Origin: Streptomyces sp. NBC_01497
GTDB taxonomy: Bacteria; Actinomycetota; Actinomycetes; Streptomycetales; Streptomycetaceae
Assembly: GCF_036250695.1 (NCBI RefSeq)
Contig: NZ_CP109428.1
Span: 186,001-250,000, forward strand
DNA length: 64,000 nt
Reading direction: 5' to 3'
Part shown: in pieces, positions 5,862-62,912 of the stretch
Layout: the number at the start of each line of letters is the position of its first letter
How positions within the stretch are numbered: the first letter of the stretch is position 1
The notes under the pieces: generated by a model
Database searches by the model: none
Told to the model about the DNA's origin: nothing
The model's input: only the letters and a program-made list of their open reading frames with translations
Program-made: the position numbers and the translations under genes

Positions 5862-6019
5862 TAAGCGTTGTCCCGTAACTCAGGGCAGAGGTCGGTAGGT
5901 CATCACAAGCAGATCTGATTGTCCGGTTGCGCCCCGAATCGCGACCTAAACCGGATCCTGAACAAGTAGGTCGAACCGGACATCGGCAAGCGGTGTCCAG
6001 AGTTACGGGACAGCCCTTA
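5862..6019 (-). mobile_element. 158-bp CTAG-type MITE, copy 1
   Basis: Minus orientation. The left end is TA+AGCGTTGTCCCGTAACTC and the right end reads GAGTTACGGGACAGCCCT+TA. The outside bases make C-TA...TA-G, as expected for a TA duplication in CTAG. Inside is a shorter inverted pair, TGTCCGGTT and AACCGGACA. It has no reading frame of its own. It lies 8 bp after the stop of the IS630 copy 1 gene. Confidence 0.9.
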
Positions 6020-6253
6020 GACGGCATGGAGTCCTGGCAGGCCGAGCAACTATCGCGCCGAAAGCAAGACCGGCCGCGAGGAAACGGTGGACGCATGCAG
6101 GGATCCGCGCTGCGAGTCTACAATTGGCCACACCGGTTGCAGACCACCTCTTTCGGGTCGCCCGAGTCTGGTTACCGTCGCGATCGGTCCATTGCCAGCC
6201 GCAACCGTCGACAGTTCCACTGGCGAGTCCCTGCTGTCTGCAGGCCGCCATCA

Positions 6254-6685
6254 CTACGGACAGGCAAACGTCTCAATGTGATCGAGTGCCATGTCGAGGG
6301 CTATCCTCATCGGCCTAGCATCACGCGCAGTACGCATGAGGAGGTATCCGCCTTGCATGGCTGCCATCAGGCCGGTCGCGAGGTCCTCCGCGCCAATGTC
6401 ATTTCTCAGCGTACCTTCATGCTGCATACGCATCAGTCCCGCTGCGATGAGGTCCCTCCAGGCTTTAAACCCCTCCGCGAGCGCGGTGCGTTCATCAGCG
6501 TCGACTGGGGCAAGTGCAACTATCGATCCGATGTCGCCGCCAAAGCTTCCTTGCTGCACGTCGAGTTCAACGAGTTCCTCAGCCCATCGACGTAGCTCTC
6601 CAATGGTTCTCAGCCCCCCCAAGGATCGCCTCTCACGCTCAAGCAATTCGCGTACCTGCAAGGCGACAACCCCGCGCACCAGAAT
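6254..6685 (-). pseudogene. TetR-type regulator, C-terminal ligand domain only
   Basis: From LVRGVVALQVRELLERERRSL to the stop at 6254 the sequence follows the ligand-binding half of the intact TetR protein encoded at 7396-8049. The shared block is ATGLMAAMQGGYLLMRTARD / ATSLMAALQGGYLLAQTSRD, followed by MRIALDMALDHIETFACP. The upstream frame (to 6838) has no helix-turn-helix and does not resemble a TetR N-terminus. The DNA-binding half is therefore missing, probably by deletion. It is a tandem paralogue of the next gene. Confidence 0.75.
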
Positions 6686-6839
6686 ATCCTCACCCGTAGA
6701 TACCGATAGGGTCATAGCAGGCCAGGTTCCTTCGGTACATAAACGCCAAAAGAACGTCCTTGCCCTTTTCAAGCACTGCCGAATTAGGGGGTCCATGATA
6801 TGGATCCTCACCTGACTCTGTGGCCTGAAAGCCCGCATT

Positions 6840-7395
6840 GTTCAGCCCTGTCAAGAGCATTTCATGCGGCAATCACATTCTCGGTCCCCAGCTCTACAGC
6901 ACAGACTGGACCATAGAGTCCCACTTTACCAGCACTCAAACGCCCACGTCTCACGAGCCGGAACATCGAGGAGGTCCCTGGTCCGCCGGCCTGCGCTCTC
7001 GCTGAGGCAGCCACCGCGAGCTGTGTTCAGCGTCCTACTGAAGGGCCTTGCCGCAGGCGGTCGACTGACGCAAACCACAATCCGGGGTCTCACATCGCTT
7101 CAGGGAATCATCTGGTGCATACCAGGTCACAAGAGTAGGGAATAATCGGCCCTCGCACTGTCGGCCGCAGTACGTGATGACAACCGGTCATCCTGCAAGC
7201 GGAGTCTGGTTGAACAAACCGGTCTACGATGCCGCCCTTGACTGCCCGGCACCACTAGCGACTGCCGTGCACGAGCTCGACCGAGAGAATGCTCCACAGC
7301 CCCGCGACACGTGGCGGCGCACGGGCGCCGCTCACGCCGGCGTGCGAGCCGCACAGGCGTCAGGCCCACACCCTGGCGCCTTGAACCACATGTCG
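6840..7395. other. Intergenic stretch without recognised gene
   Basis: I see no family-like frame in either direction here. The segment separates the eroded TetR gene from the intact one and probably holds deletion debris. Confidence 0.5.
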
Positions 7396-8049
7396 CTACA
7401 GGACGCTCTCCCCGGACCTAGACTTCACTGCATACAGTTTGACGTGGTCAATGGCCATGTCAAGGGCCACCTTCATAGGGGTGACATCGCGGGACGTCTG
7501 GGCTAGTAGGTAGCCCCCCTGCAGGGCAGCCATGAGGCTGGTCGCAAGCTTGTCAGGGTCGGCGTCCGGCCGAAGAGTGCCTGAATCCCGCATGCGGGTC
7601 AGGCCCCTGACCAGCAGCCCGAGCCACTCTCCGAAGTGGCCTGCGAACGCTAGGCGCACTTCGTCATCACCATCTACCAGTTCACTGGCCAGTGAACCCA
7701 ATGGGCATCCGTACGCGCCGCCACGCAGCGCATTGCGCTGGACGAGCGCGTCACGCCATCTTTCGAGACCCCGCAGAGAATTGAGACGTTCCAATTGCTG
7801 CCGCTGCCGCTCGATCAGCTCGGTGGCCTGAAGCTCAATGACCTGGGAGACTAGGAGCTCTTTGTCGGGAAAGTGGCGGTACAGCTGTGACTTACTGGTG
7901 GCACTAGCCGCTCGGACGTGGTCGAGTGTCGTCGCCGCAACACCCTTGACATGCATGAGGTCCGCGGCCGCACGGAGGATCCGGTCCCTTGTGACCATGC
8001 CCCGTGCCGTGAGCCGCGACGCCTCAGTTCTTGTCTCCCGTTCCGCCAC
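7396..8049 (-). CDS. TetR family transcriptional regulator
   Basis: 217 residues from a GTG at 8047-8049; ATG 7993-7995 (MVTRDRILRAAADL) is an alternative start. The N-terminal helix-turn-helix is clear at about residues 25-65 (RDRILRAAADLMHVKGVAATT, LDHVRAASATSKSQLYRHFPDKELL). The C-terminal ligand domain resembles the TetR_C type found with small-molecule sensors. Such proteins are usually repressors of a neighbouring gene, but no transporter or enzyme lies beside it. The closest neighbours are a TetR remnant downstream and a sigma factor gene upstream in the same direction. Candidate operator sequences lie just upstream of the start (8077-8106). Confidence 0.9.
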   Translation of the reverse strand: MAERETRTEASRLTARGMVTRDRILRAAADLMHVKGVAATTLDHVRAASATSKSQLYRHFPDKELLVSQVIELQATELIERQRQQLERLNSLRGLERWRDALVQRNALRGGAYGCPLGSLASELVDGDDEVRLAFAGHFGEWLGLLVRGLTRMRDSGTLRPDADPDKLATSLMAALQGGYLLAQTSRDVTPMKVALDMAIDHVKLYAVKSRSGESVL

Positions 8050-8076
8050 AGGTCAAGGCTACCCCGACCACCGACG

Positions 8077-8106
8077 GGTGGCACTATAAAGTGGACTAAA
8101 AGGTCC
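8077..8106. promoter_or_regulatory. Candidate operator region upstream of tetR gene
   Basis: Two motifs lie side by side: GGTGGCACTATA (8077-8088) and the near-palindrome GGACTAAAAGGTCC (8093-8106). The first recurs as both arms of a palindrome at 36100-36132. The second resembles GGACTATTAGGTCC at 47012-47025. The position 30-60 bp before a TetR start fits autoregulation, but binding is inferred only from repetition and symmetry. Confidence 0.4.
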
Positions 8107-8253
8107 GGTTGTAGCTGCGGAGCCCGATCGCGGTGAGGGCCGCATCGTGGGTCAATCGATGCGAGAGACAAGGCCTCTCACCTCGACAGCCTTAACGCTG
8201 CTTCCCGGGCCGACTCTTGCCGCCCGAGTTACGCAGTCCCCTACTTAAGGGAC

Positions 8254-8880
8254 TCATAATAATCTCGGCTGGGGGGCGATGTGCCCGTCAGCAACTAGCC
8301 GGGCACGTAGCTTCTTCCGCGCGTCGAACATGCACTTGTAGACTGCATTCCTATTGGTGTCAAGCTCGTCAATCAGAGCATCAACCGGATCACCATTGAC
8401 GATCAGTGCAGTGAAGATCCTTCGCTGCCGTTCACTGAGCACCGTCTCCACTGCCCTGCGAAGCGCAACCAATAGCTCCCGCGCCTCCACCTCACCTGCA
8501 GGGTCAAAGCCAGGTCGATCCGGGAGACCGATCCATTGGTCCAGATCAAACGCTACTCGTTTCTTCCTCCAATGATGTCTGCCGAGCTTGGTCGAAATCT
8601 CTAGTACGACAAACTTGAACGCCCACGTCGTGAACTGGCTATCACCACGGAAGCCATCAACCTTCGCAATAATACGCATAAGGGCATCGGCTGCTGCCTG
8701 ATGCGCCAGATCCGTCAGCTCCGGTCCATAAATTCGGTAGGCTGGCCCACGCCGAAAGGCCTCACCCAGGGCGATACGGAGCAGCAGCGCGTGGAGTTGC
8801 CTGCATGCCAGCTCATAACGCGGATTGCCTTCTTTGAGCACGTCTGCCCAGTCGGTCGCATTTGAATCAATCGAATGCAC
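8254..8880 (-). CDS. RNA polymerase sigma-70 family (ECF-like) sigma factor
   Basis: 208 residues from GTG 8878-8880, preceded by AGAAGGGA with good spacing. Region 2 is visible at about residues 50-115 (LTDLAHQAAADALMRIIAKVDGF, SQFTTWAFKFVVLEISTKLGR). Region 4 lies at about 145-195 (LSERQRRIFTALIVNGDPVDALIDEL, NRNAVYKCMFDARKKLRARL). The zinc-binding anti-sigma partner often found beside such genes is absent, so its control is unknown. The HTH (ALIDELDTNRNAVYKCMFDARKKLR) is similar to sigma factors that act with a separately encoded anti-sigma protein, but this is inference. Confidence 0.85.
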   Translation of the reverse strand: MHSIDSNATDWADVLKEGNPRYELACRQLHALLLRIALGEAFRRGPAYRIYGPELTDLAHQAAADALMRIIAKVDGFRGDSQFTTWAFKFVVLEISTKLGRHHWRKKRVAFDLDQWIGLPDRPGFDPAGEVEARELLVALRRAVETVLSERQRRIFTALIVNGDPVDALIDELDTNRNAVYKCMFDARKKLRARLVADGHIAPQPRLL

Positions 8881-9665
8881 CTAGCATCCCTTCTCGGCAC
8901 GTCCCCAGAACGGATGGGCTGGGTTCCGCGGTATCGACAGAAACATGCGTGCCCCCCGCGACCCATGCTGATGGCTGAGTACTCTCAGTCGACCACGCAG
9001 GCATCTATTTTAGATCTACGAGCACTGAACAGTGCGAAGGCTGAAAGGAGCCGATAATGCCCCACTCACACATTCACTTGCACTCTGACCGGTCATCAGC
9101 TCGCGAAGGGAATCAACGCATGCCACAAAAGAGCTCGGGAGATTAATTTCCACTAATCGAATCGTCAGTCACAGGCCACGGGAGCGGGCATACCGATCCT
9201 GCATGGACCACCGGCCGAAAAGGCTCCGATGCGCGCGGGCGAGCAACCCGAACCTACCTTCCTGCTGATGGGCGCCAACTCCAGAGACCCGCACTGATCA
9301 TTGAGAGGGGGAGGGTGGGCAATGGCGTCCGCCTGAGCCGGCCGGTCTCCGCGGCCCCATCTTCGAGACCGCCTGGACGAGTAGGGGGCGGTAGCACAGG
9401 CCGGCGTCAGGCACCATCCGAACGCATGAAGGAACCATCTGCCAGAGGGAGTGGCGAAGGATGAGGCCACTCCCTATAGACACCCCGTAGATTTACATGT
9501 GGGAGGATGGTGAGCAGCGATAAGTTTGGGATCAGGTTGTGACGCCTAGAACCCAGGCGCCGATCCGCAAGCGAAACCCTCCCACGCAGGGGGCTCGTAC
9601 TGCAGTGCTGTCAGGCAGACCTGATTACAACCTGCCTCCCCCCACCTCCACCCGGAAGGATCGTT
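8881..9665. other. 785-bp intergenic region
   Basis: No convincing gene. It lies between the divergently transcribed sigma factor and DUF5709 genes and must contain both promoters. The last 20 bp carry the ribosome binding site GGAAGGA (9654-9660) for the DUF5709 gene. Confidence 0.5.
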
Positions 9666-10106
9666 ATGAGTGAGGATGACCAGGAGCTTGGGCTCCTCAG
9701 GGAGTCGGAGGAATTCGATGAGGACGAGATCGGAGACTACTTGGACGCTGGCTACTCACCGGCGGAACGTCCGCAGGCGGTAAACGATTGGGGCATCACT
9801 GAACGCGAGTCTCACGGGCATGAACCCCTCTCCAAGCGGTTGGCCCGCGAAGCTAGAGACAGCCAGGACTTGGAGGACGATGGTGACGGGATCGGCGACA
9901 CGATCGGCACAGATGGCGAGGCCATTGACGATCAGGTGGGATCGGCTCGTGCTGGTCGCCTCCTCTCATGGGATACCGACGTGACCGGGGTGCGCTATGA
10001 CGGCGACGACTACTGGGCCAAGGACGTAGGGATTGATGGCGGTGCCGCGTCCGCCGAGGAGTCGGCTATCCATGTCATCGATCCTGACGGTTTCCGTACC
10101 GAGTGA
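9666..10106 (+). CDS. DUF5709 domain protein
   Basis: 146 residues, ATG 9666, five bases after GGAAGGA. The acidic sequence contains the family blocks LDAGYSPAERPQAVNDWG, LSKRLAREARD and the C-terminal DVGIDGGAASAEESAIHVI. DUF5709 proteins are common in Streptomyces and have no established function. There is no signal peptide or membrane segment, so a soluble protein is expected. It stands alone: divergent from the sigma factor gene and followed by an IS5 remnant pointing towards it. Confidence 0.85.
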   Translation: MSEDDQELGLLRESEEFDEDEIGDYLDAGYSPAERPQAVNDWGITERESHGHEPLSKRLAREARDSQDLEDDGDGIGDTIGTDGEAIDDQVGSARAGRLLSWDTDVTGVRYDGDDYWAKDVGIDGGAASAEESAIHVIDPDGFRTE

Positions 10107-10177
10107 CAGGCTGATGCCGGCTAGGCGTCTAATGTTCAGCCACGAACGGAGGCCTGCCTCTGCCGGATCGCGCACTT

Positions 10178-10874: not shown

Positions 10875-10879
10875 CGATC

Positions 10880-11530: not shown

Positions 11531-11598
11531 CCGTCAGCATCCCTCGCCACCACTGTTGGTCCTGACAGAAGTCTCGGATGATGTGACTGTCGGCTCGG

Positions 11599-15375: not shown

Positions 15376-15532
15376 TAAGGGCTGTCCCGCAACTCGCGAT
15401 GGACTCTCCAGGGTTCGGTTGATCCCGACTCGAGGTAGGTCCACTCGCGACGGAGGGACAGGGCAAAAGTGGGCAAACGTCAGCTGTGATGTCGATCTGA
15501 CTGCAACCTCGAGGAATACGGGACGGCCCTTA
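15376..15532 (+). mobile_element. MITE-like element with CTAG-family ends but different interior
   Basis: The left end TA+AGGGCTGTCCCGCAACTC and right end ATACGGGACGGCCCT+TA match the terminal repeats of the 158-bp family. The borders read C-TA...TA-G. The interior (about 120 bp) shows no clear similarity to the main family, yet the total length, 157 bp, is the same. It is probably a separate subfamily moved by the same enzyme. Confidence 0.7.
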
Positions 15533-16070: not shown

Positions 16071-16968
16071 ACCGCTTCCAGTGCGTTGCCGGCCCCCAGC
16101 GCCGTTATGGCGTGAAGCGGCTGTGCAGCATTCTCGGCGTCAGCCGCTCGAGCTTCTACTACTGGCGCCGGACAGCCGCGGACCGGGCCGCCCGGCAGGC
16201 GGCGATGCGAGGCTGGCCGCCCGGATACGGGCGGTGCACCAGGAATCGGACGGCACCTACGGAGCCCCACGGATCACCGCCGAACTTCGCGAGACGAACA
16301 GTGAAGCCGTCAACCACAAACGCGTCGCAAGGATCATGCGGGCGTCCGGGATCGAAGGGGTCCGGTTGCGCCGCCGGCACCGCACCACCGTCCCCGAGCC
16401 ATCCGCGGCCAGAGCTCCGGACCTGATCGGCCGCGACTTCAGCGCCGAGAGGCCCAACACGAAGTACGTCGGCGACATCACCTACCTGCCTGTCGACGGC
16501 GGGAAGTTCCGCTACCTGGCGACCGTCATCGACCTCGCCTCGCGCCGCCTGGCCGGCTGGGCCATCGCAGACCACATGCGCGCGGACCTCGTCACCGACG
16601 CCCTTGCCGCGGCGGTCCGCACCCGCGGCAGCCTCGCCGGATCGATCATGCACACCGACCACGGAGCCCAGTACACAAGCAGGGCCTTCGCTCAAACCTG
16701 CAGGTCAGCAGGGGCCCGACGAAGCATGAGCGCGGTCGGCTCCAGCGCAGACAACGCACTCGCCCAGTCCTTCAACGCGACCTTCAAACGCGAGGCCCTG
16801 CAAGGACGAAAGAGCTGGAGCAACGAGCGCGAGGCCCGACTCGACGCCTTCAGATGGCTGAACCGCTACAACACCCGACGCCGACACTCCCGCCTCGGAC
16901 AACGATCACCGATCGCCTTCGAGAACGCCTTCCACCTCACACCAACTACATTGGCACAAGCCGCATAA
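16067..16968 (+). pseudogene. IS3 family transposase OrfB, one-base frameshift
   Basis: The first frame reads NRFQCVAGPQRRYGVKRLC, SILGVSRSSFYYWRR to about residue 45 (RQAA). A base is missing near 16203, and the rest continues in another frame from DARLAARIRAVHQESDGTYG to the stop at 16968. The catalytic DDE blocks are present in the second frame: YVGDITYLPVDGGKF, IMHTDHGAQYTS and NALAQSFNATFKRE. A single-base sequencing error would restore the gene; otherwise it is inactive. Confidence 0.8.
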
Positions 16969-17285: not shown

Positions 17286-18060
17286 GGTTCGGGAGGATGG
17301 GCTGTACGACACCGACGACGTGGGCTTCTTCCTCGGCCTGGATGTCGGCAAGACCGCCCGTCACGGGCACGGACTGACCCGGACCGGAAGGGAGGCCTGC
17401 GACAAGCCCGTGCCCACAACGAAGCTGAACTGCGGCCTGGCTTCGACTAGTTGTCCGTCAAAATCGGCATCGCCCTGGTGATCATTGGCCAGGCCGCCCT
17501 GCTGGAGCCAACCGGCAAAATCACCGCCGAGCTGCTGTGTTCGGCGGGTTCGACTACGACCTGGCGGCCGAGGCGGCCCGCAGCAACCGGATTCGCGGCC
17601 TGCTCACCCGGTTCCACCCCACCTAAGGGCTGTCCCGTAACTACGGGCACCGCTTGCCGATGTCCGGTTCAACCTACTTGGTCAGGATCCGGTTTTGGCC
17701 CCGATTCGGGGCGCAACCGGACAATCGGACCTGCTTGTGGTGACCTACCAACCTCTGCCCTGAGTTACGGGACAACGCTTAGGAACGTCTCCTCGGCATC
17801 CGTCTGGACCACCCTGCGGTGATCTGGCTGCTGGAACGCTACGGATCCCCAGCCTCCCTGCTCAGGTCGACACAGGTTGGTCGTGATCCGCCCCAAATCC
17901 CCGCGCATGGCCCAGCTGCTGATTGACGAGGTCTTCGACGCGCTCGACGAGCAGACCGTCGTCGTATCCGGCACCGGGGCCCCGGCATCGTGATCCCGTC
18001 GCTGGCCCGCTCGCTCGCACGAACAGCGACGCGCTGCGAAGCAGATCGCGCCAGCTGAGC
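17286..18060 (+). pseudogene. IS110 family transposase remnant, split by a MITE
   Basis: The 5' part is TDDVGFFLGLDVGKTARHGH, and later AEAARSNRIRGLLTRFHPT up to 17623. After the MITE at 17624-17781 the frame resumes as ERLLGIRLDHPAVIWLLERYG, SPASL. Then follow, in shifted frames, KSPRMAQLLIDEVFDALDEQ and VIPSLARSLA. Much of the centre and the C-terminal serine-containing domain are missing. It is a relative of the longer IS110 copy at 52115-53319. The family inserts through a DEDD/serine enzyme without classical inverted repeats. Confidence 0.8.
17624..17781 (+). mobile_element. 158-bp CTAG-type MITE, copy 2
   Basis: Plus orientation. The ends are TA+AGGGCTGTCCCGTAACT and ACGGGACAACGCT+TA, with C before and G after. 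It lies inside the IS110 remnant between the codons for FHPT and ERLLG. Removing it with one TA leaves ACC TAG GAA, in frame but with TAG where relatives have a leucine codon. Confidence 0.9.
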
Positions 18061-19064: not shown

Positions 19065-19222
19065 TAAGGGCTGTCCCGTGACTCTGGACACCGCTTGCCG
19101 ATGTCCGGTTCGACCTACTTGGTCAGGATCCGGTTTTGGCCGCGATTCGGGGCGCAATCGGACAATCAGATCTGCTTGTGGTGACCTACCGACCTCTGCC
19201 CTGAGTTACGGGACAACGCTTA
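19065..19222 (+). mobile_element. 158-bp CTAG-type MITE, copy 3
   Basis: Plus orientation, TA+AGGGCTGTCCCG...CGGGACAACGCT+TA, with C before and G after. It sits 17 bp to the left of the IS5 element at 19240. Confidence 0.9.
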
Positions 19223-19239
19223 GCCTCAACGCTGGTGAC

Positions 19240-20107: not shown

Positions 20108-20108
20108 T

Positions 20109-21877: not shown

Positions 21878-22331
21878 CTTCGACCCGGCCATCAGCCAGG
21901 TGAACGGGCCCCTCCACCGACACCACCGGGCTGCGGAGTTCAAGAAGTTCCTGGTCACGATCGACAAGGTCGTGCCAGCCGGCCCCGACGTCCGCCTGAT
22001 CTGTGACAACTACGCCACCCACAACACCGCCGAGATCAAGACGCGGCTCGGAAAACACCCACGCTTCCACGTCCACTTCACCCCCACCGGCTCACCATGG
22101 ATGAACCAAGTCGAGCGGTGGTTCAGTCTGCTGACGGACAAACTCATCCGCCGCGGGGTGCACACCTCCACGAAGTCCCCGGAACAGCACATCAGGACCT
22201 GGATCGCCGGATGGAACGAAAACCCCAGGCCCTTCACCTGGACCAAGACCGCCGACGAGATCCTCGACTCCCCCGCCGACTACCTCACCAAAATCGCACC
22301 ACAGAGCAGCAGCAACCAGCCACAGACCTAA
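21878..22331 (+). pseudogene. IS630 family transposase, C-terminal part, copy 2
   Basis: It starts mid-protein at AAFDPAISQVNGPLHRHHRA and runs [60 protein letters not shown] to SSSNQPQT and TAA. The second D and the E of the DDE triad are present; the first D is missing. From 21942 onward it is nearly identical to the IS630 copy ending at 62757 (two differences noted in about 390 bp), while the sequence just before differs markedly. The stop codon is formed by the start of the adjoining MITE. Confidence 0.85.
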
Positions 22332-22491
22332 GCGTTGCCCCGCAACTCAGGGCAGAGATCGGTAGATCACCACAAGCAGATCCGATTGTCTAGTTGCGCC
22401 CCGAATCGCGGCCTAAACTAAACCGGATCCTAATCAAGTAGGTTGAACCGGACATCGGCAAGCGGTGCCCGGAGTTACGGGACAGCCCTTA
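22329..22491 (-). mobile_element. CTAG-type MITE, copy 4 (163 bp)
   Basis: Minus orientation, TA+AGCGTTGCCCCGCAACTC...ACGGGACAGCCCT+TA, borders C and G. A 5-bp duplication in the centre (CTAAACTAAA) explains the extra length. Its first TA lies in the stop codon of IS630 copy 2. Confidence 0.9.
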
Positions 22492-28913: not shown

Positions 28914-28921
28914 CGCCGCTG

Positions 28922-35813: not shown

Positions 35814-35971
35814 TAAGGGCTGTCCCGTAACCCTGGTCAGCGCTTGCCGATGTCCGGTTCGGCCTACTTGGTTAGGATCCAGTTTAGGCCGCGACTCGGG
35901 GCGCAACCGGACAATCAGATCTGCTTGTGGTGACCTACCGACCTCCGCCCCGGGTTACGGGACAACGCTTA
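35814..35971 (+). mobile_element. 158-bp CTAG-type MITE, copy 5
   Basis: Plus orientation, TA+AGGGCTGTCCCGTAACC...TTACGGGACAACGCT+TA. The left outside base is G instead of the usual C; the right one is G. Confidence 0.9.
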
Positions 35972-38040: not shown

Positions 38041-38198
38041 TAAGCGTTGTCCCGTAACTCAGGGCAGGGGTTGGTAGGTCACCACAAGCAGATCTGATTG
38101 TCAGGTTGCGCCCCGAATCGCGGCCTAGACCAGATCCTAACCAAGTAGGTTGAACCGGACGTTGGCAAGCAGTGCCCAGAGTTACGGGACAGCCCTGA
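38041..38198 (-). mobile_element. 158-bp CTAG-type MITE, copy 6
   Basis: Minus orientation, C-TA+AGCGTTGTCCCGTAACTC...GTTACGGGACAGCCC+TGAG. The right border has G for T (CTGAG instead of CTTAG). Confidence 0.9.
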
Positions 38199-43449: not shown

Positions 43450-45118
43450 GTGCGAGACTGCCGCATTGTTCCCGCGTGTCCGTGTTCAGGGGGACGGCCG
43501 CTAAGGGCAGTCCCGTAACTATGGGCACCGCTCGGCGATGTCCGGTTCAACCTACTTGATTGGGATCCGGTTGAGGTCGCGATTCGGGGCGCAATCGGAC
43601 AATCAGATCTGCTTGTGGTGACCCACCGACCCCTGCCTTGAGTTACGGGACAACGCTTAGGTGGTCTCGCAGACCGGCTCGGTCCTGCTGGTGGAGACAA
43701 TCCGCAAGGTGGGTCTTGACCAGGCAATATCCGCGGCGCTGGCGCCGTGGCGCAAACTGCGGCCCGTCCATGATCCGGGGACGGTCGTCCTGGACGTCAC
43801 ACTCGCGGTCGCGTTGGCCGGGGACTGCCTGGCCGAGTCGGCATGCCAGGGGCCGAGCCGGCTGTGTTCAGGCCGGTCGCCTCCGATCCGACGGTTTCCC
43901 GCCCCATCGACACCCTCGCTGCCATTGGAGAGAAGGCACTGCGTCGGTCCGCGACGCGCGGGCCGAAGTACGCAAACAAGCCTGGCAGTTGGCTGACCGG
44001 CAAGCGCCCGATGCCGACAGGGCGGTGACCGTCGGCCTTGACGGGGTGCTGGTGATCGCGCACTCGGACAAGAAGGACGCCGCGCCGACGTGGAAGCGAA
44101 CCTACGGTCACCACCTGCTGATGGGGGTCGTCGACTACGGCTCGGGCGGCACCGGTAAGCCCGTGGCGGCCCTGCTCAGGCCAGGGAACGCGGGCTCGAA
44201 CACGGCAGCCGGCCACTCACTGCCACCTGCCTAGCGCTGACCCAACTGCCGAAGAAGTACCGGCGCGGGCGCCAAACCCCTGATACGCACCAACTCCGCG
44301 GATGGCACCCATGACTTCGTCGCCTGGCTCGCTCAGCGAGGACGGTGGCTGTCCTCTGCGGTCGGCGTGGTGATCACCGAAGCGATCCACGAGCACGTAC
44401 TCAAGGTTCCGGCCTCGGCCTGGACGCCGGCTGTCGAGGCGGACTGCGAAATCCGTGACGGCGTTTGGGTCCCCGAACTCACCGATGACGTCCTGGACGG
44501 CTGGTCGAGCAGGATGCGGCTGATCATCCGGAAGGAACGGCCGCACCCTGGAGCTCAGTTGCGGCTCACGGACGCGGACGGCATGCGGCTGACATGTTTC
44601 GCCACCAACACGTCGGGCCGGCCGATCGCCGAAGCACCTCGAGCCGCGTCGCCAGCTGCGGGCCCGGGCCACCGGCCTGCGAACCCCGCTCTGAAGCACA
44701 CAGCCCAAAACCGGGTCTGCCTGGAGATCGTGCAGATCGCGTTGGACCTTTTGGCCGGGATGCCGATGCTCGCTCTGACCGGCAAGGCCAGGCTCTGCGA
44801 GCCCCGCCGGCTACGGCTCCGCCTGTTCACCACGGATGGACAGCTCGTCACCACCGGCCGCCGCCGGATCCTCCGCCTGGCCCGGCACTGGCCCTGGACC
44901 CGGCCGCATAACCACCGCCCTCGAACGGCTCGCGCCCCTGCCGAACCCGGGCTGACCAAGGGTTCTCCCGTCCCTACTACAGCAGCTCAACAGCCGGAGC
45001 AATGGAACCCGGCACCACCACGAGGCGACAATCGCGCCCTCGGCCTGCACAGCCTTCGCCCACGGCACGAAAACGGTCCAGCGACTCCATCGGCGGACCG
45101 TCACGAAATTTCGAGGTT
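43450..45118 (+). pseudogene. IS1380 family transposase, MITE-interrupted and frameshifted
   Basis: The N-terminus FPRVRVQGDGR ends at 43501; the frame resumes after the MITE with VVSQTGSVLLVETIRKVGLD at 43661. Later blocks lie in several frames: VRKQAWQLADRQAPDADRAV TVGLDGVLVIAHSDKKD, KRTYGHHLLMGVVDYGSGGT, KYRRGR region, GVVITEAIHEHVLKVPASAW, RMRLIIRKERPHPGAQLRLT, NRVCLEIVQIALDLLAGMPM LALTGKARL. At least four indels. It is a relative of the gene at the left window edge. Confidence 0.85.
43502..43659 (+). mobile_element. 158-bp CTAG-type MITE, copy 7
   Basis: Plus orientation, C-TA+AGGGCAGTCCCGTAACTA...GAGTTACGGGACAACGCT+TA-G. It lies in the IS1380 gene between the codons for GDGR and VVSQ. 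Removing it with one TA gives CGC TAG GTG where a glycine codon is expected. Confidence 0.9.
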
Positions 45119-48509: not shown

Positions 48510-48667
48510 TAAGGGCTGTCCCGTAACCCTGGGCGCCGCTTGCCGATGTCCGGTTCAACCTACTTGGTTAGGGTCCGATTTAGGCCGCGATTCGGGGCGT
48601 AACCGGGCAATCAGATCTCCTTGTGGTGACCTACTGACCTCTGCCCTGAGTTACGGGACAACGCTTA
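48510..48667 (+). mobile_element. 158-bp CTAG-type MITE, copy 8
   Basis: Plus orientation, C-TA+AGGGCTGTCCCGTAACCC...GAGTTACGGGACAACGCT+TA-G. Confidence 0.9.
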
Positions 48668-49344: not shown

Positions 49345-50383
49345 TGGTCGTGGTCAGTCGGACGGTTCTCGCGCATCAGGCGTTCGTGGGGGTCTCTCGG
49401 GGGCATCTCGCCTCGGTGGTTGAGGAGTTGCCTGGCCCGTGGCAGGCCGTGGTCGAGGGGCGTCGTTATGAGGCTCGCGGCGGGGCCGGGTAGCGCGAGG
49501 CAGGAGCGGGTGTCCGGCATCGGCTGGTGTTCGTCGACCGGCTCGTGGCCAGGCTGATTCACTGGCGGCACGACGTGCCGCAGGCGGCGTTGGGGCTGCT
49601 GTTCGGCGTCGACCGCTCCACCATCACCCGTGCGATCGGCGAGATACGAGGCTGGCTCGCCGAGCGGGGATGCGCGGTCCCAGACCGGCCCGGCCTGCGG
49701 CTGCGGCTGCGGCTGCGGCTGCGGCTGCGGCTGCGGCTGCGGCTGCGGCTGCGGCTGCGGCTGCGGCTGCGGCTGCGGCTGCGGCTGCGGCTGCGGCTGC
49801 GGCTGCGGCTGCGGCTGCGGCTGCAGCCGCGGACCCTGGCGGATGTGTTCGCCTACGCCCAGGCCGAAGGCGTCCAACTCCGGTTGGACGCCACCGAAGT
49901 CCAGGTTCGCCGGCCCCCGGCGGCGGCAGGCGGGCGTTCGTCTCAGGCAAGAAGAAACAGAACACGATGAAGGCCACCGCCGTCGCCGGCCATCAGGGCC
50001 GCACGCCCTGGACCGATGCCCTGCGACCAGGGCGAACGCCTGACACTACCGCCGCACGCAACGAAAGCATCCCTCCCTGCCTCCACCACTTTCGCGACGC
50101 GGAAGTCCTCTTGGACGACCGCCGCCCCGGACTCCGTCACAATCATCCGGGCCAAGCGGTGACCCCGCCCCGGAAGGCAAACAAGATCAGTCCGCCCGAG
50201 GTCCCCGACGCCCGCCCACAACCGCGACACCAGCACCCCTCGAAGCGCATCACCGTCGAACACGCCCCCGCCGATCACAAACGCTGGAAGCAACCGATCC
50301 ACCAGACCCACCGACGAGAAAACCCGCCCGCCACCTACCGGGCCAACGCCGGCCCCGACTCCAACCGCAACACCACCGACTGA
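49345..50383 (+). pseudogene. IS5 family transposase with expanded hexanucleotide repeat
   Basis: The N-terminal part is VVSRTVLAHQAFVGVSRGHL, ASVVEELPGPWQAVVEGRRY EARGGA. After a frame change near 49490 comes LVFVDRLVARLIHWRHDVPQ, AALGLLFGVDRSTITRAIGE, WLAERGCAVPDRPG. Then 21 tandem LR dipeptides, LQPRTLADVFAYAQAEGVQL, RLDATEVQVRRPPA, and in another frame FVSGKKKQNTMKATAVAGHQ, PRKANKISPPEV, SKRITVEHAPADHKRWKQ. Relatives have a short LRLRTLADV here, so the LR run is an expansion of one or two units. Frame changes on both sides of the repeat show the gene is dead. Confidence 0.8.
49695..49820 (+). repeat. (CTGCGG)21 tandem hexanucleotide
   Basis: 126 bp of perfect CTGCGG units with no interruption, followed by a partial CTGCAG. 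It lies in frame inside the IS5 transposase gene, encoding Leu-Arg repeats. The regular GG spacing could favour slippage or G-quadruplex structure. Repeat number is likely to vary between isolates, and assembly could also misjudge it. Confidence 0.95.
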
Positions 50384-50528: not shown

Positions 50529-50687
50529 GAAGGGTTGTCCCGTAACTCAGCACAAGGCTGGCGAGGGTGCCGCTACCGGATCAGCCTGTCCGGGTCCGTC
50601 CGGATCTACAGCTCCGCTGAGGCCCTCACCAATTGGGGCGAACTGGACGCCCACAAGGCACTCACAGCAGTTACGGGACAGCCCTGA
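50529..50687 (+). mobile_element. MITE-like element with CTAG-family ends but different interior
   Basis: The left end reads AGGGTTGTCCCGTAACTC and the right end AGTTACGGGACAGCCCT, then GAG. The interior shares no clear sequence with the main family, but the total length is 159 bp. The left border is CGA and the right TGAG, so the TA/CTAG borders are worn. Confidence 0.65.
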
Positions 50688-54581: not shown

Positions 54582-54738
54582 TAAGGGCTGTCCCGCAACC
54601 CTGGGCACCGCTGCCGATGTCCGGTTCAACCTACTTGGTTAGGATCCGGTTTAGGCCGCGATTCGGGGCGCAACCGGACGATCAGATCTGCTTGTGGTGA
54701 CCTACCGACCTCTGCCCTGAGTTACGGGACAACGCTTA
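54582..54738 (+). mobile_element. CTAG-type MITE, copy 9 (157 bp)
   Basis: Plus orientation, C-TA+AGGGCTGTCCCGCAACCC...GAGTTACGGGACAACGCT+TA-G, with one base lost in the left interior. It is 6 bp from the left end of the IS5 element at 54745. Confidence 0.9.
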
Positions 54739-54744
54739 GAAGTT

Positions 54745-55583
54745 ATCTCATTTGGCTAGCCTGCGATAACAGATGAGGATCGCGGCGATACCTGCGAAGG
54801 CGAGGAGGTGTTCCGCCTTGCGTTCGTAGCGACGGTGGAGACGGCGGCAGCCTGCGAGCCAGGACATCGACCGTTCCACGACCCAGCGGTGGCGGCCCAG
54901 ACGCTCAGACGATTCGATGCCTTTGCGCGCGATGCGAGGAGTAATGCCGCAGCTGCGGAGCCATTGCCGCAGGTGACGGTAGTCGTAGCCTTTGTCCCCG
55001 TGAAGCCTGCCGGGCTTTCGCCGACGCGGTCCGCGACGGGAGCGGATGGGCGGGATACCCCGCACGAGCGGCTCCAGCCCCTGGCTGTCGTGCATGTTGG
55101 CGCCGGAGATGCCCACCGAGAGCGGTAAACCGGTGCGTTCGGTAATCAAATGGATCTTCGACCCGTACTTGCCGCGATCTACAGGATTCGGGCCCGTCAG
55201 GCCCCCCTTTTTCATGGCCCGCATGTTCACCGATTCGATCGCGCACCGCGACCAGTCAAGTCCTCCACGAGGACCCAGTTCGTCCAGGACCAGGCGGTGC
55301 AGCTTGCCCCACACCCGAGCCTTGGACCACTCAGTCAAGCGCCGGTGGGCCGTCGGCCCCGACGGGCCAAAGGATGGCGGCAACTGAGCCCACGTGCACC
55401 CTGACGTGGCAACAAACACGATCGCCGCCAACACCTCACGGTCTCCATGCCGTCGGCGACCGCCGCCCTGCGGCCGAACCGGAGCCGGCGGCACCACCCG
55501 CTCGAACAGCTCCCACAACTCATCAGGCACCAACCGCTCCACAATCCCCACGACCCAAGACTATCCGGCCCGCCAAATGAGAT
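54745..55583 (-). mobile_element. IS5 family insertion sequence with intact transposase
   Basis: The ends are ATCTCATTTGGC and its complement GCCAAATGAGAT, the same family as 33473-34315. The element is 839 bp with one open transposase gene. It is the only IS5 copy of this group in the window without frameshifts. Confidence 0.85.
54748..55551 (-). CDS. IS5 family transposase
   Basis: 267 residues from GTG 55551 (MGIVERLVPDELWELFERVV). It has a DUF4096-type N-terminal domain (EVLAAIVFVATSGCTWAQLP, PTAHRRLTEWSKARVWGKLH), the first D near DWSRCAIESVNMRAMKKGGL, then GSKIHLITERTGLPLSVGIS, DKGYDYRHLRQWLRSCG and the E block SSERLGRHRWVVERSMSWLA. The A5G6 run at MKKGG, often a frameshift signal in relatives, here leaves one continuous frame. 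Confidence 0.9.
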   Translation of the reverse strand: MGIVERLVPDELWELFERVVPPAPVRPQGGGRRRHGDREVLAAIVFVATSGCTWAQLPPSFGPSGPTAHRRLTEWSKARVWGKLHRLVLDELGPRGGLDWSRCAIESVNMRAMKKGGLTGPNPVDRGKYGSKIHLITERTGLPLSVGISGANMHDSQGLEPLVRGIPPIRSRRGPRRRKPGRLHGDKGYDYRHLRQWLRSCGITPRIARKGIESSERLGRHRWVVERSMSWLAGCRRLHRRYERKAEHLLAFAGIAAILICYRRLAK

Positions 55584-57495: not shown

Positions 57496-57652
57496 CAAGC
57501 GTTGACCCGTAACTCAGGACAGAGGTCGGTAGGTCACCAGAAGCAGATCTGATCGTCCGGTTGCGCCCCGAATCGCAGCCTAAACCAGATCTAACCAAGT
57601 AGGCCAAACCGGACATCGACAAGCGGCGCCCAGAGTTACGGGACAACCCTGA
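57496..57652 (-). mobile_element. CTAG-type MITE, copy 10 (157 bp)
   Basis: Minus orientation, left end AGCGTTGACCCGTAACTC, right end AGAGTTACGGGACAACCCT. The borders are worn (CCAAG and CTGAG). It touches an IS5 fragment on its right side. Confidence 0.85.
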
Positions 57653-57803
57653 GGGAGCCCGCCGACCAACACATAGACGATCGCCGCGAGGACCGTCATC
57701 ATCGATGTGCGCGACTCCGCCGCCCTGTGGCCGCACACGGACCGACGGCAGCAACGACTCCGCTATCCCCCACAGCCCGTCCGGAGTAATCCATACGCAT
57801 CGG
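57653..57803 (-). pseudogene. IS5 family transposase, N-terminal fragment
   Basis: The minus strand reads DYSGRAVGDSGVVAA in one frame and DGLWGIAESLLPSVRVRPQG, GGVAHIDDD in the other, then IVYVLVGG. It is the N-terminal region of the IS5 group seen at 19240-20107. It ends exactly at the MITE border. Confidence 0.7.
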
Positions 57804-58196
57804 CTCTGACTTGATGCCTACAATCGACAAGGCAAGGGTGCTTAGCCACATAACGCAACCAGCGATTAAAAGCAGTGTTCCGAAGACACTGAAGCAGCGG
57901 CAAACAACCCGAACCTACTGCACTCCCCCAGTCTGAGCCTTCGACTAACGCCCGGCCCCAAAGCGGCTCCGCCATCCGGAGTCCCGATTCTCCGTCAACG
58001 GCTAACCCGCCACACGTACCCGCAGCAGGTACACACGCTACGCCCACCAAACTCCTCGCCAGTATGGGAAGCTATGCCCTATCGACCCTGCCCTGCCGAT
58101 CGACTATTGCGGCACACCGCGCCGAGGCGAGCAAACCCCCCGCTTACCTGCGCGTCTTCGGGAGGGGATCCATCCTGGCGGGGGAAGGTGGGTGCC
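57804..58196. other. Upstream region of the HAD/GH65 pair
   Basis: No gene recognised; expected to contain the promoter of the downstream operon. The ribosome binding region GGGGGAAGGTGGG lies at about 58180-58192. Confidence 0.45.
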
Positions 58197-58934
58197 ATGA
58201 AGAAACTCGGTCTGCCGGAACACATCCGGGCGTGTCTGTTCGACCTGGACGGCGTCATCACCAAGACCGCCGTCGTGCATGCCGCGGCCTGGAAGGAGAT
58301 GTTCGACGAATTCCTCCGACGACGTGACGGCGACGGCTTCCGCCCGTTCACCCCGGACGACTACGACCGGTACGTCGACGGCCTGCCGCGCGCCGACGGC
58401 GTCCGCTCCTTCCTCGCCTCCCGCGACATCGAACTGCCGGAGGGCAAGGACAGCGACCCGGAGGACAAGGACACCGTCCACGGACTCGGCAACCGCAAGA
58501 ACACCCTCGTCCTTGAGAAGATCCGCACCGACGGCGTCGAACCGTACGAGGGCACCCTGCGCTACGTCCGGGCCGCCCGCGAGCTCGGCCTGCGCACCGC
58601 AGTGGTCTCGTCCAGCGCCAACTGCCGGGACATCCTGCGGTCGGTGAACGCGGAAGACCTCTTCGAGGTCCGGATCGACGGTGTCGTGGCCGCCGAGCGG
58701 CGCCTGCCCGGCAAGCCGCGGCCGGACACCTTCCTCGCCGCCGCGCACGACCTCGACGTCGCGCCCGGGGACTGCGCCGTCTACGAGGACGCGCTCGCCG
58801 GCATGGACGCGGGCAAGTCGGGGCACTTCGGCTACGTCGTCGGGGTCGACCGGGTGGGCCAGTCCGACGCGCTGCGCGAACACGGCGCCGACATCGTGGT
58901 GAAGGACCTCGCGGAACTGGGGGCGGACGCGTGA
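58197..58934 (+). CDS. Beta-phosphoglucomutase family HAD hydrolase
   Basis: 245 residues from ATG 58197, preceded by GGAAGG. The HAD nucleophile motif is FDLDGVIT with Asp16 and Asp18; motif II is AVVSSSANCRDIL, the lysine is in RLPGKPRPDTFLAAA and motif III in CAVYEDALAGMDAGKSG. The cap insertion is large (residues about 30-110). It interconverts beta-glucose 1-phosphate and glucose 6-phosphate in the cytosol. The stop overlaps the GTG of the GH65 gene (58931-58934), so both are translated together, and the phosphorylase supplies its substrate. Confidence 0.9.
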   Translation: MKKLGLPEHIRACLFDLDGVITKTAVVHAAAWKEMFDEFLRRRDGDGFRPFTPDDYDRYVDGLPRADGVRSFLASRDIELPEGKDSDPEDKDTVHGLGNRKNTLVLEKIRTDGVEPYEGTLRYVRAARELGLRTAVVSSSANCRDILRSVNAEDLFEVRIDGVVAAERRLPGKPRPDTFLAAAHDLDVAPGDCAVYEDALAGMDAGKSGHFGYVVGVDRVGQSDALREHGADIVVKDLAELGADA

Positions 58935-61285
58935 TCACGCACTCCAACTACACGGTCGAACCCTGGGTCCTGCGCGAGTCCGGGATCAACCTCGACGTCC
59001 TGCCGCAGAGCGAGTCCGTCTTCGCGCTCTCCAACGGCCACGTCGGCTGGCGCGGCAACCTGGACGAGGGGGAGCCGCACGGTCTGCCCGGCTCGTACCT
59101 CAACGGTGTCCACGAACTGCACCCCCTGCCGTACGCGGAAGCCGGGTACGGCTACCCCGAGTCGGGGCAGACGGTCATCAACGTCACCAACGGCAAGGTC
59201 TTCCGGCTCCTCGTCGACGACGAACCGTTCGACCTGCGCTACGGCGACGTCCGCTCCCACGAGCGCGTCCTCGACCTCAAGACCGGCCTGCTGCACCGGA
59301 CCTGCGAGTGGGTCTCGCCCGCGGGCTGCGCCATCAGGGTCCGTTCGACCCGCCTCGTCTCCTTCAGCCAGCGCTCGATCGCCGCCGTGCGCTACGAGGT
59401 CGAGGCCGTCGACGCGGACGTACGCCTCGTCGTGCAGTCCGAGCTGATTGCCAACGAGCAACTCCCCGGCAGCGACGGCGATCCCCGCGCGGCCGTGGCC
59501 CTGGAGTCGCCCCTCGTCTCCGAGGAGCACTACGCCCACGAGGGCCGATTGCGGCTCGTGCACACCACGGCACGCAGCGGGCTGCGGGTCGCCGCCGCCG
59601 CCGACCACGGCATCACCGGCCCCGACTCGACCCGTACGAGCAGCGAGAGCGGCAAGGACGTCGGCCGGGTCACCATCACCACGCACCTCCAGCCGGGCGA
59701 GGTGCTCCGGGTGGACAAGGCCGTCGCCTACGGCTGGTCCTCCACCCGTTCCCTGCCCGGCGTGCGCGACCAGGTCGACGCGGCCCTCGCCCAGGCCGTC
59801 AGTACCGGGTGGGACGGGCTCGTGCGCGAACAGCGCTCCTACATGGACGACTTCTGGTCCCGCGCCGACGTCGAGGTCGAGGGCGACGAGGAGATCCAGC
59901 AGGCCGTGCGTTTCGCTCTCTTCCATGTTCTGCAGGCCGGTGCGCGCGCCGAACAGCGGGCCGTCCCGGCGAAGGGACTGACCGGCTCGGGTTACGACGG
60001 GCACAGCTTCTGGGACACCGAGATGTTCGTCCTCCCGCTGCTGACCTACACGGCCCCGCACGCGGTGGAGGAGGCGCTGCGCTGGCGTCACAGCACCCTG
60101 CCCGCCGCGCAGGACCGCGCCGAACAGCTCGGCCTGGAGGGCGCCGCGTTCCCCTGGCGCACCATCGAGGGCTCCGAATGCTCGGCCTACTGGCCGGCGG
60201 GCACGGCCGCGTTCCACGTCAACGCGGACATCGCGAGCGCGGCCGTACGGTACGTCAGCGCGACCGGCGACGAGCGGTTCGAACGGGAGATCGCGGTCGA
60301 ACTCCTCGTGGAGACAGCCAGGTTGTGGCGTTCTCTCGGCCACCACGACCACCACGGTGTCTTCCACATCGACGGGGTCACGGGCCCGGACGAGTACAGC
60401 GCGGCGATGGACGACAACACGTACACGAACCTCATGGCGCGCGCCAACCTCCACGACGCGGCGGACGCGGCGGAACGCCATCCCCGGCGGGCCGCGGAAC
60501 TGGGCGTGGACGACGAGGAGAGCGCCGCGTGGCGGGATGCCGCCGACGCGATGAACATGCCCTACAACAGTGAACTGGGCGTGCACGAACAGCACGCGGG
60601 CTTCACCGGCCACCAGGTGTGGGACTTCGCGGGCACCCGGCCCGACCAGTACCCGCTGCTGCTGCACTTCCCGTACTTCGACCTCTACCGCAAGCAGGTC
60701 GTCAAACAGGCGGACCTGGTCCTGGCGATGTACACGTGCGGTGAGCAGTTCGACGCGGACCAAAAGGCGCGCAACTTCGCCTACTACGAGCCGCTGACCG
60801 TTCGTGACTCGTCCCTCTCCGCCTGCGTGCAGTCGGTGATGGCCGCAGAGGTCGGCCATCTCAGGCTCGCCTACGACTACTTGGTCGAAGCGGCCCTCAT
60901 CGACCTGGAGGACAAGGAGAACAACACCCGCGACGGCGTCCACATCGCGTCGCTCGCGGGCACCTGGATGGCGCTCGTCGCCGGCTTCGGCGGCATGCGG
61001 CACCGCGGCGACAAGCTGGAGTTCACCCCCAAGCTCCCGGAACGGCTGCGCAGGCTCGCGTTCAAGGTGCACATCTTCGGACGCCGGCTCGCGGTGGAGA
61101 TCAAGGCAACGGGCGCCACGTACACACTCATGGAGGGCGAGCCGCTGACGCTGAAGCACTGCGGCGAGGAGATCACGGTCACCGTCTCCGCGCCGGTGGA
61201 GCGCAAGCTGCCGTCCTGGACGGTGCACCCGGCCCCGCTCCAGCCGCCGGGCCGCACCCCCTCACGCGACCACGAACCGACCTGA
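58931..61285 (+). CDS. Glycoside hydrolase family 65 (maltose/trehalose/kojibiose phosphorylase type)
   Basis: 784 residues from GTG 58931. The N-terminal GH65 beta-sandwich is residues about 10-270 (SESVFALSNGHVGWRGNLDE, FDLRYGDVRSHERVLDLKTG). The (alpha/alpha)6 barrel begins around 330 (RFALFHVLQAGARAEQRAVP, KGLTGSGYDGHSFWDTEMFV). The general acid Glu is in HIDGVTGPDEYSAAMDDN at about residue 488; phosphate-binding HIASLAGTW is near 675. A C-terminal beta domain follows. Family members split alpha-linked diglucosides with phosphate to beta-glucose 1-phosphate and glucose, or hydrolyse trehalose. The neighbouring mutase favours phosphorolysis. Which disaccharide is used cannot be read from the sequence. 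Confidence 0.9.
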   Translation: MITHSNYTVEPWVLRESGINLDVLPQSESVFALSNGHVGWRGNLDEGEPHGLPGSYLNGVHELHPLPYAEAGYGYPESGQTVINVTNGKVFRLLVDDEPFDLRYGDVRSHERVLDLKTGLLHRTCEWVSPAGCAIRVRSTRLVSFSQRSIAAVRYEVEAVDADVRLVVQSELIANEQLPGSDGDPRAAVALESPLVSEEHYAHEGRLRLVHTTARSGLRVAAAADHGITGPDSTRTSSESGKDVGRVTITTHLQPGEVLRVDKAVAYGWSSTRSLPGVRDQVDAALAQAVSTGWDGLVREQRSYMDDFWSRADVEVEGDEEIQQAVRFALFHVLQAGARAEQRAVPAKGLTGSGYDGHSFWDTEMFVLPLLTYTAPHAVEEALRWRHSTLPAAQDRAEQLGLEGAAFPWRTIEGSECSAYWPAGTAAFHVNADIASAAVRYVSATGDERFEREIAVELLVETARLWRSLGHHDHHGVFHIDGVTGPDEYSAAMDDNTYTNLMARANLHDAADAAERHPRRAAELGVDDEESAAWRDAADAMNMPYNSELGVHEQHAGFTGHQVWDFAGTRPDQYPLLLHFPYFDLYRKQVVKQADLVLAMYTCGEQFDADQKARNFAYYEPLTVRDSSLSACVQSVMAAEVGHLRLAYDYLVEAALIDLEDKENNTRDGVHIASLAGTWMALVAGFGGMRHRGDKLEFTPKLPERLRRLAFKVHIFGRRLAVEIKATGATYTLMEGEPLTLKHCGEEITVTVSAPVERKLPSWTVHPAPLQPPGRTPSRDHEPT

Positions 61286-61299
61286 CAGAGGGGACTGTC

Positions 61300-61835
61300 C
61301 AGCGAGTAGCTCCGTTCCGTAGTCGGTGGTACCGGCAGGTGACGGACATCGTTGGCGTTATGTCCGGGATGCCGACTCCTCTGTGGCAAGGCTGTCTTCA
61401 GGGCTCCCGGCGCTGGTCATCGAAGATGTGGCGGACGACGGTGAGGTGATCCGGGTCTTCGCCCGGACCCGGGATTTTTTCCGGTGCCCTCCCCGCTGCA
61501 CCGATATCCCGTCCGGACGGTGGCAGGTGTCCCGTCCGGACGGTGGCGGGTGTCCCGGTGGACGATGCCGAGACCGGGAAGGCGCCACGTCCTGCACAAC
61601 CGCGCGGCCGCCACTCTGCAAGCACGGCCACGCGAGAGGAAAGGGGGGCGAGGTGGAGTGCCGGGACGCCTCGCCACCTACGCCGAGGCGATCCCCCGGG
61701 CCCCGCCCAACGCGGTGCAGGCCAGCGATCGCCGCCAGCTGTAGCAGAACTTGTACGACAAAGCCCTCGCCGAGATCCGCACCCACGCCCCCTGCCGGGC
61801 CACCATCAACCCGCACCGCCCCGGCCCAGCGGGGA
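61300..61835 (+). pseudogene. ISL3 family transposase remnant, internally deleted
   Basis: The N-terminal piece is [29 protein letters not shown] (61390-61470). Further on in another frame, [20 protein letters not shown], then [26 protein letters not shown] (61680-61830). These match the start and middle of ISL3 enzymes with several hundred bases missing between them. It joins IS630 sequence at about 61836. Confidence 0.7.
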
Positions 61836-62757
61836 TACGAACCGCTTGCGGTCGAGGTTCATCCGGTTGCGGCAGGACGGGCTGACCGATGAGCCGCGTC
61901 CCGGCAGGCCGCCCTCCATCCTGTTGGACCAGGTCGAGGACGTGCTCACGGCGACGCTGGAGTACGCTCCGGGCCAGGACACGCACTGGTCGCGGGCCTC
62001 GATGGCGAAGCACTCCGGGTTGTCGAAGTCGACCATCAGGCGGACCTGGAAGAAGACTGACCTCAGGCCTCATCTCCAGGACGCGTTCAAGCTCTCCACC
62101 GATCCGCAGTTCATCGCGAGGGTCGTCGATGTCGTCGGCCTCTATCACCATCCGCCCGAGAAAGCGGTGGTGCTGTGCGTGGATGAGAAAAGCCAGGTCC
62201 AGGCGCTGGACCACTCCCAGCCAGTGCTGCCAATGATGCCCGGCACGCCCGAGCGGCGCATCCACGACCACTACCGGCACGGCATCACGAGTCTGTTCGC
62301 CGCCTTCAACACCGCCGACGGCAGCGTCATATCGGAACTGCACCGCCGACACCGCGCCATCGAGTTCAAGAAGTTCCTGGTCACGATCGACAAGGTCGTG
62401 CCAGCCGGCCCCGACGTCCGCCTGATCTGTGACAACTACGCCACCCACAACACCGCCGAGATCAAGACGCGGCTCGGAAAACACCCACGCTTCCACGTCC
62501 ACTTCACCCCCACCGGCTCACCATGGATGAACCAGGTCGAGCGGTGGTTCAGTCTGCTGACGGACAAACTCATCCGCCGCGGGGTGCACACCTCCACGAA
62601 GTCCCCGGAACAGCACATCAGGACCTGGATCGCCGGATGGAACGAAAGCCCCAGGCCCTTCACCTGGACCAAGACCGCCGACGAGATCCTCGACTCCCCC
62701 GCCGACTACCTCACCAAAATCGCACCACAGAGCAGCAGCAACCAGCCACAGACCTAA
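61836..62757 (+). pseudogene. IS630 family transposase, copy 3, N-terminus missing
   Basis: The frame from about 61836 reads [40 protein letters not shown], then all three catalytic blocks: [20 protein letters not shown] (D), [20 protein letters not shown] (D), [20 protein letters not shown] (E). It ends SSNQPQT and TAA at 62755-62757. The first HTH is absent because ISL3 sequence stands there. The last 390 bp are nearly identical to copy 2 at 21942-22331. The stop codon was probably TAG in CTAG before the MITE inserted. Confidence 0.85.
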
Positions 62758-62912
62758 GGGCTGTCCCGTAGCTCTGGGCGCCGCTTGCCGATGTCCGGTT
62801 CGAATTACTTGGTTAGGATCCGGTTTAGGCCGCGATTCGGGGCGCAACCGGGCAATCAGATCTGCTTGTGGTGACCTACCGACCTCTGCCCTGAGTTACG
62901 GGACAACGCTTA
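62755..62912 (+). mobile_element. 158-bp CTAG-type MITE, copy 11
   Basis: Plus orientation, C-TA+AGGGCTGTCCCGTAGCTC...GAGTTACGGGACAACGCT+TA-G. It sits on the stop codon of IS630 copy 3, opposite in orientation to the MITE at the same codon of copy 2. Confidence 0.9.

Follow-up and report, generated by a model that had tools for sequence, protein, structure and literature searches.

Miniature inverted-repeat transposable elements (MITEs) of bacteria are usually viewed as decaying leftovers of one insertion sequence (IS). We describe here a family of short non-coding elements, most often 158 bp long, which was first recognized in Streptomyces sp. NBC_01497 in a stretch of 64,000 nucleotides (positions 186,001 to 250,000 of contig NZ_CP109428.1, referred to as C2; below, "the window", C2:186001-250000). 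The closest described element is MITEPsy1 from Pseudomonas syringae, which is 100 nt long, is attributed to an IS5-family helper (ISPsy2) and is mobile in vivo (PMC3189936). It resembles the present elements as a short MITE assigned to an IS5-family helper, in its target (CTAG or YTAA) and in its 18-nt ends, and a 99-nt relative found elsewhere, 71% identical, is also length-conserving (PMC3189936). In contrast, it is 100 nt long with 6 copies, its printed ends differ, it generates a 4-nt rather than a 2-bp duplication, and the accessible text of that report does not mention an inner motif pair (PMC3189936); the present elements thus fall outside the MITEPsy1 group. In the genus Streptomyces itself, the accessible text on the S. 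albus J1074 genome records IS112 elements, one of which disrupts the SalI gene (PMC3937824). A literature search confined to titles and the beginnings of abstracts, and mostly to papers available without subscription, retrieved no description of elements like those presented below in Streptomyces.

Our reading, which we consider probable, is that these elements form a MITE family moved in trans by an IS112-type transposase (IS5 family) acting on their outer ends, that they insert at CTAG leaving a TA on each side, and that the spacing of their inner motifs is kept by selection. A bacterial MITE of the IS5 type is a known kind of element while a two-tier, length-locked design is unusual. The most unusual features, which lay beyond the view of the initial annotation, are the number of diverged subfamilies, the fixed inner motif, the nearly invariant length and the crowding on the plasmid.

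The genome consists of two contigs, the chromosome (C1; 8,552,978 bases, 8.55 Mb) and C2 (528,823 bp). Over the 60 bases compared, the two ends of C2 form a near-identical inverted repeat, an arrangement typical of Streptomyces linear plasmids, and C2 can on this basis be taken as a probable linear plasmid. A genome-wide search with a covariance model built from 20 members identified 41 elements at unrelated sites, 40 on C2 (including a 147-bp remnant at C2:178155) and one on C1. This count leaves out two shorter pieces and a weak match (C2:108439-108589). A paired-end scan of C2 gave 49 candidate pairs, 10 of which were dropped by eye as they had no TA-type ends. Thirty of the 41 copies belong to subfamily A, the one noted first in the window, and the other 11 to further subfamilies. 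Two copies located at unrelated sites are 100% identical and four copies of another subfamily are approximately 99% identical, which suggests recent movement in more than one subfamily. For comparisons across the family, 67 rows were gathered and reduced to 65 (41 from this genome and 24 foreign) by removing L120 and L121, whose elements and flanks are the same as those of L058 and L073; at a threshold of 80% identity these form 21 groups.

The outer ends of the 158-bp elements (TAAGGGCTGTCCCGTAAC) are those of an abundant Streptomyces insertion sequence. The only near-complete IS with the same ends seen in the genome, C1:148872-149755, specifies a protein matching HTH_Tnp_4, DDE_Tnp_1 and DDE_Tnp_4. 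Similar ISs match 215 plasmid records, 207 of which are from Streptomyces, and some are annotated as IS112 (record name "IS5-like element IS112 family transposase"). All six complete IS112-type copies that were read carry C-TA-AGG(G/C)... at both ends together with C-TA/TA-G borders, as expected if a MITE matches a transposase-encoding element. A seventh, on SLP2, is missing its right end, and two more distant elements, with transposases 67-68% identical, likewise show these outer ends and C-TA..TA-G borders, reading C-TA-GAGG... The IS112-type elements are about 884 bp long and include a transposase gene, and inspection by eye of the copies read revealed no inner GTCCGGTTC near either end. 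The initial annotation had suggested that the elements were mobilized by an enzyme of the IS630/Tc1-mariner group. TA targets are typical of this group, IS630-type transposase genes lie beside several of the copies, and the IS630-type relatives that were read also end at CTAG. However, these relatives (four, which constitute the entire survey of IS630 ends) have other end sequences, not TAAGGGCTGTCCCGTAA, and the matching outer ends and borders are found in IS112-type elements with HTH_Tnp_4/DDE domains. An IS630-type helper was rejected on these ends and is very improbable; the shared ends make an IS112-type transposase acting in trans the likelier candidate. Among other IS5-type genes, scans of 13 C2 regions and one C1 region gave three with clear but different ends (CA[CG]TGAGCC...), one doubtful pair and ten without any.

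The elements do not appear to be internally deleted copies of IS112. When representatives of the 21 groups were compared by blastn with the six IS112-type elements, the longest match was 40 bases and started at the end. There were also 209 interior-only matches at E<=10, and the 10 that were viewed did not exceed 20 bases, with E values of about 1 or higher. Derivation of the interior by deletion from a parent IS112-type element is not supported by these matches, and it seems instead that the elements use IS112-type ends.

CTAG is under-represented in the window (64 occurrences compared with 213 expected from base composition), so the CTAG borders are not due to chance, in agreement with the strong target choice proposed initially. 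Complete C-TA..TA-G borders are found in 30 of the 40 C2 copies and TA is present on both sides in 32. Two independent comparisons with empty sites support the duplication. The copy at 43502 (window coordinates, as for all unprefixed positions) interrupts an IS1380-type transposase gene. With one TA kept, 16 of 19 foreign loci align without gaps over the 34 columns around the junction; among the exceptions, the only gap in L156 lies away from the junction while those in L153 and L160 are at or near it. The four closest foreign loci read C-CA-G at the junction, and three C2 paralogues of the site, approximately 80% identical, agree with one TA. At 62755, located at the end of an IS630-type gene, four of four relatives have the same length when one TA is kept (counted by eye); the sister copy at 22329 was left out of the comparison since its right flank aligns poorly. 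The empty sites are themselves not CTAG: the closest is CCAG and that of the second locus TTAA. A 2-bp TA duplication at CTAG, proposed in the initial annotation together with the non-autonomous nature of the insertions, is well supported by these alignments. If TA is the duplication, the length of 158 bp counts both TA copies, and the element proper would be 154 bp long with a net insertion of 156 bp. Although 156 is a multiple of three, the possibility of in-frame protein insertions was discarded as reading frames are not kept open (at best in 25 of 65 copies). For the chromosomal copy, no match spanning both flanks was found in 61 genomes, the genome itself aside, and for the copy in S. tendae no plasmid record other than its own spanned both flanks among the matches listed (12 of 15).

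Two 393-bp ends of IS630-type genes in the window, 99.5% identical, each carry an element at the same nucleotide of the stop codon but in opposite orientations (22329-22491 and 62755-62912). Both independent insertions at the same CTAG and an inversion in place are possible.

In addition to their ends, the elements share an almost invariant length. Forty-six of the 65 are exactly 158 bp long, as are 12 of the 21 groups; 20 of the 21 fall within 156-160 bp and the remaining one is 149 bp. They have the short size and lack of coding capacity of MITEs. This is in spite of extensive divergence: the groups share a median identity of 61% with one another. Identity averages 0.85 and 0.82 for the two ends, 0.71 for both inner motifs, 0.60 for the centre and 0.46-0.48 for the spacers (0.25-0.32 would be expected from composition alone). 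In the 71 most distant of the 210 pairs, the spacers fall to 0.38-0.40 and the inner motifs to 0.60-0.63, with a median length difference of 1 bp. In 17 of the 21 groups the inner motif GTCCGGTTC, or the sequence closest to it, begins 38-40 from end 1, and in 19 of them it begins 59-60 from end 2. A version with no more than one mismatch is present on the end 1 side in 16 of 21 groups and on the end 2 side in 15 of 21, compared with 33 of 2000 shuffled interiors. On C2, exact TGTCCGGTTC occurs 21 times in elements and 4 times outside (0-3 in shuffles). The distances of the two inner sites from their respective ends differ by 21 bp, about two helical turns, which fits a protein-DNA complex although it is not a test of one.

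These features suggest the following scheme. An IS112-type enzyme would recognize the outer ends, excise or copy the element and insert it at CTAG, leaving one TA on each side. The inner motif, situated about 39 bp inside one end and 60 bp inside the other, would bind additional transposase or an accessory protein and so shape the complex, and selection on the geometry of the inner sites would hold their spacing and hence the total length.

A different view is that these are plain MITEs without selection on their interior, in which both length and inner motifs would simply have been inherited from a common ancestor with few insertions or deletions. In the simplest model, MITEs need only their ends, and the subfamilies can be aligned over their full length. 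Yet a median length difference of 1 bp has persisted between elements whose spacers are 46-48% identical (38-40% for the most distant pairs), the inner motifs remain at 0.71 while the adjoining spacers fall, and IS112-type elements with 82-87% identity to the query already vary in span from 868 to 887 bp (single-piece, full-coverage matches listed). We regard this alternative as rather unlikely, though it is the most serious competitor to transposition in trans with selected spacing. A parent IS carrying the inner motif was looked for by pattern searches; end 1 together with the inner motif was found in seven stretches of genome contigs, none of them a longer element. Six were from Streptomyces or [Kitasatospora] and held seven complete 158-bp elements, while the seventh, from Paenibacillus, had no second end and no match to the model. 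The same pattern in viral contigs, and the 158-bp consensus in phages, returned nothing.

Several observations weigh against the scheme involving an IS112-type helper and selected spacing. Among 17 IS112-related regions retrieved from other genomes, a pattern match to both ends was obtained just for the 2 more distant elements mentioned above; one region (L183), with 97% identity to the IS112 transposase, showed a single end, and most of the remaining regions are relatives of about 50-56% identity that yielded no pair of these ends. The two IS112-type genes detected in this genome (E<=1e-60) are both broken. For the C1 copy, the match ends at residue 216 of 256 and the frame extends beyond the element end, while the C2 copy has stop codons in the gene. 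Since neither is intact, nothing obvious moves the elements now. At the same threshold, an IS112-type transposase is present in 12 of 15 genomes carrying elements and 9 of 15 comparison genomes, one of the latter (G004) having shown a 38-base end match, and three element-carrying genomes (G158, G340 and G078) have no match. As its presence fails to separate the two sets, the case for this helper comes from ends and target rather than from co-occurrence. Since IS112-type ends did not show the inner motif, this enzyme need not read it. Moreover, the motif was defined on the same sequences on which it was scored, so that the position counts are a description and not an independent test, and shared ancestry also preserves motifs. 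Less stringent versions of the motif lack specificity for the elements: GTCCGGTTCGACC with up to two mismatches occurs 36 times inside elements and 39 times outside (shuffles, 17-31), and CTTGTCCGGTTC, allowing one mismatch, occurs once inside elements and 8 times outside (shuffles, 1-3). In eight of the 40 C2 copies, the remnant being one of them, TA is missing from at least one side. A third empty-site comparison, that of C2:107227 with ten paralogues (about 77-84% identical), was off by 1 bp and neither confirms nor excludes the TA duplication. Finally, inner pairing has a slightly higher covariation score than shuffles (0.147 compared with 0.123, with 46 of 500 shuffles as high).

This score bears on the idea that the repeat is, or encodes, a conserved structured RNA which has spread because the RNA is useful; the initial annotation had considered that this would contradict an insertion. 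The near-constant length and the inverted inner pair would suit an RNA, and 21 folded copies were strongly structured because of their ends (in folding without a shuffle control). However, the share of paired cells in the inner repeat is that of shuffles (82.2% compared with 81.6%, 172 of 500 being as high), outer pairing is no better than in shuffles, and no Rfam family matched the window or any of seven element-carrying loci; the absence of an open frame was also counted against this idea. Compensatory pairing of the kind expected from a structured RNA was not found, and we judge such a role to be very improbable. Since the pairing is without clear covariation, a DNA-protein geometry is likelier than an RNA.

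C2 represents 6% of the genome but holds 40 of the 41 copies. CTAG is denser on C2 (79 per 100 kb compared with 14 in a 400-kb sample of C1, about 5.6-fold), but this falls far short of the approximately 650-fold difference in copies per base and was rejected as the cause. The elements might instead have been co-opted by the plasmid, with a role in partition or silencing for example. This would account for their crowding, and the exact inner motif is enriched in the elements. Against this, the copies are found in both orientations at sites unrelated to one another, in some cases within a transposase gene or at its end, and in other genomes some are found on contigs of at least 5 Mb; selection against chromosomal insertions explains the crowding equally well. 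We consider co-option very unlikely to be the explanation. Most simply, crowding of these MITEs reflects tolerance of insertion on the plasmid.

The family is not restricted to this strain. The 158-bp consensus has matches in 8 of 295 Streptomyces genomes, and the covariance model in at least 55 of 392 at E<=0.001, with strong matches (E<=1e-14) in at least 15 of 392, this genome being included in the first and last counts; the figures from the model are lower bounds, given stricter filters and the few candidates scored. Copies occur on plasmids of Streptomyces sp. WAC00288 (p1-p4), S. tendae and S. anulatus and in the genomes of S. bikiniensis (4), S. caatingaensis, [Kitasatospora] papulosa and S. 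phaeoluteigriseus, the copies of the latter two being those of G072 and G339 (identical elements and flanks).

The same model also detected a parallel class of 166-bp elements in other Streptomyces genomes, with an exactly 166-base match in at least 29, and one such element matches 61 plasmid records. In the 12 loci read (L084, L087, L088 and L090-L098, positions 1501 to about 1666), this class resembles the 158-bp elements in its outer ends, its C-TA..TA-G borders (8 of 12), its near-constant length (11 of 12 are 166 bp and one is 165 bp) and an inner inverted repeat at fixed offsets (10 of 12). It differs in that the inner repeat is another one, of 28 bp, occupying positions 28-55 counted from one end and 32-59 counted from the other. 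Average identity among the 11 full-length copies is 92%, and they would therefore represent a younger set. It is possible, although we put this forward tentatively, that such elements are two-tier, length-locked and long-lived replicators in which outer ends shared with a common IS are combined with a class-specific inner pair at fixed offsets which would recruit a second factor or extra transposase and make them better substrates than the IS they exploit. At least two classes, of 158 and 166 bp, would then have arisen with these outer ends in common.

Within the window, all eleven copies listed in the initial annotation were recovered with their ends and inner pair (mismatched in several), seven in plus and four in minus orientation and eight with complete borders. 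Its length of 158 bp holds for eight of them, and two members of other subfamilies had been overlooked. All eleven belong to subfamily A. Those of 158 bp with C-TA..TA-G borders are located at 5862..6019 (minus), 17624..17781, 19065..19222 and 48510..48667 (all plus). The borders are also complete in the copies at 22329..22491 (163 bp, minus), which has the same left flank as that at 62755, and at 54582..54738 (157 bp, plus). The two copies with empty sites supporting the TA duplication, at 43502..43659 and 62755..62912, are both 158 bp long and in plus orientation. The three with altered borders are at 35814..35971 (158 bp, plus; left border G-TA), 38041..38198 (158 bp, minus; right border GA-G) and 57496..57652 (157 bp, minus; C-CA..GA-G). 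The two overlooked elements are at 15376..15532 (157 bp, plus; another subfamily, with identities of 86% to C2:340929 and 81% to C2:74230) and at 50529..50687 (159 bp, minus), a copy with degraded borders (C-GA..GA-G) which is 98% identical to C1:8402790, the only chromosomal copy found, and belongs to its subfamily. In four copies (38041, 50529, 57496 and C2:305738) GA replaces TA on the end 1 side, with CA on the other side in two; these recurring degraded forms are more alike than independent decay would suggest. As stated initially, no transposase gene between such ends was seen in the window in the scans made. The window is rich in other transposase genes and remnants of the IS630, rve, IS5, IS1380 and IS110 types (for example 4768-5853, 16081-16968 and 54748-55551). 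It also includes a short tandem array of CGGCTG units (49662-49853) and, at 58074-61002, a HAD-type hydrolase gene in a stretch which resembles genes for beta-phosphoglucomutase and glycosyl hydrolase 65 on other Streptomyces plasmids.

With 40 copies on the plasmid and a single one on the chromosome, this family provides a natural example of plasmid-biased build-up. Its members are non-coding but seem to have preserved an almost exact length and their inner architecture even as most of their spacer bases changed. Whether MITEs have transposition enhancers of their own, and why some are more numerous than their helper, thereby becomes testable.

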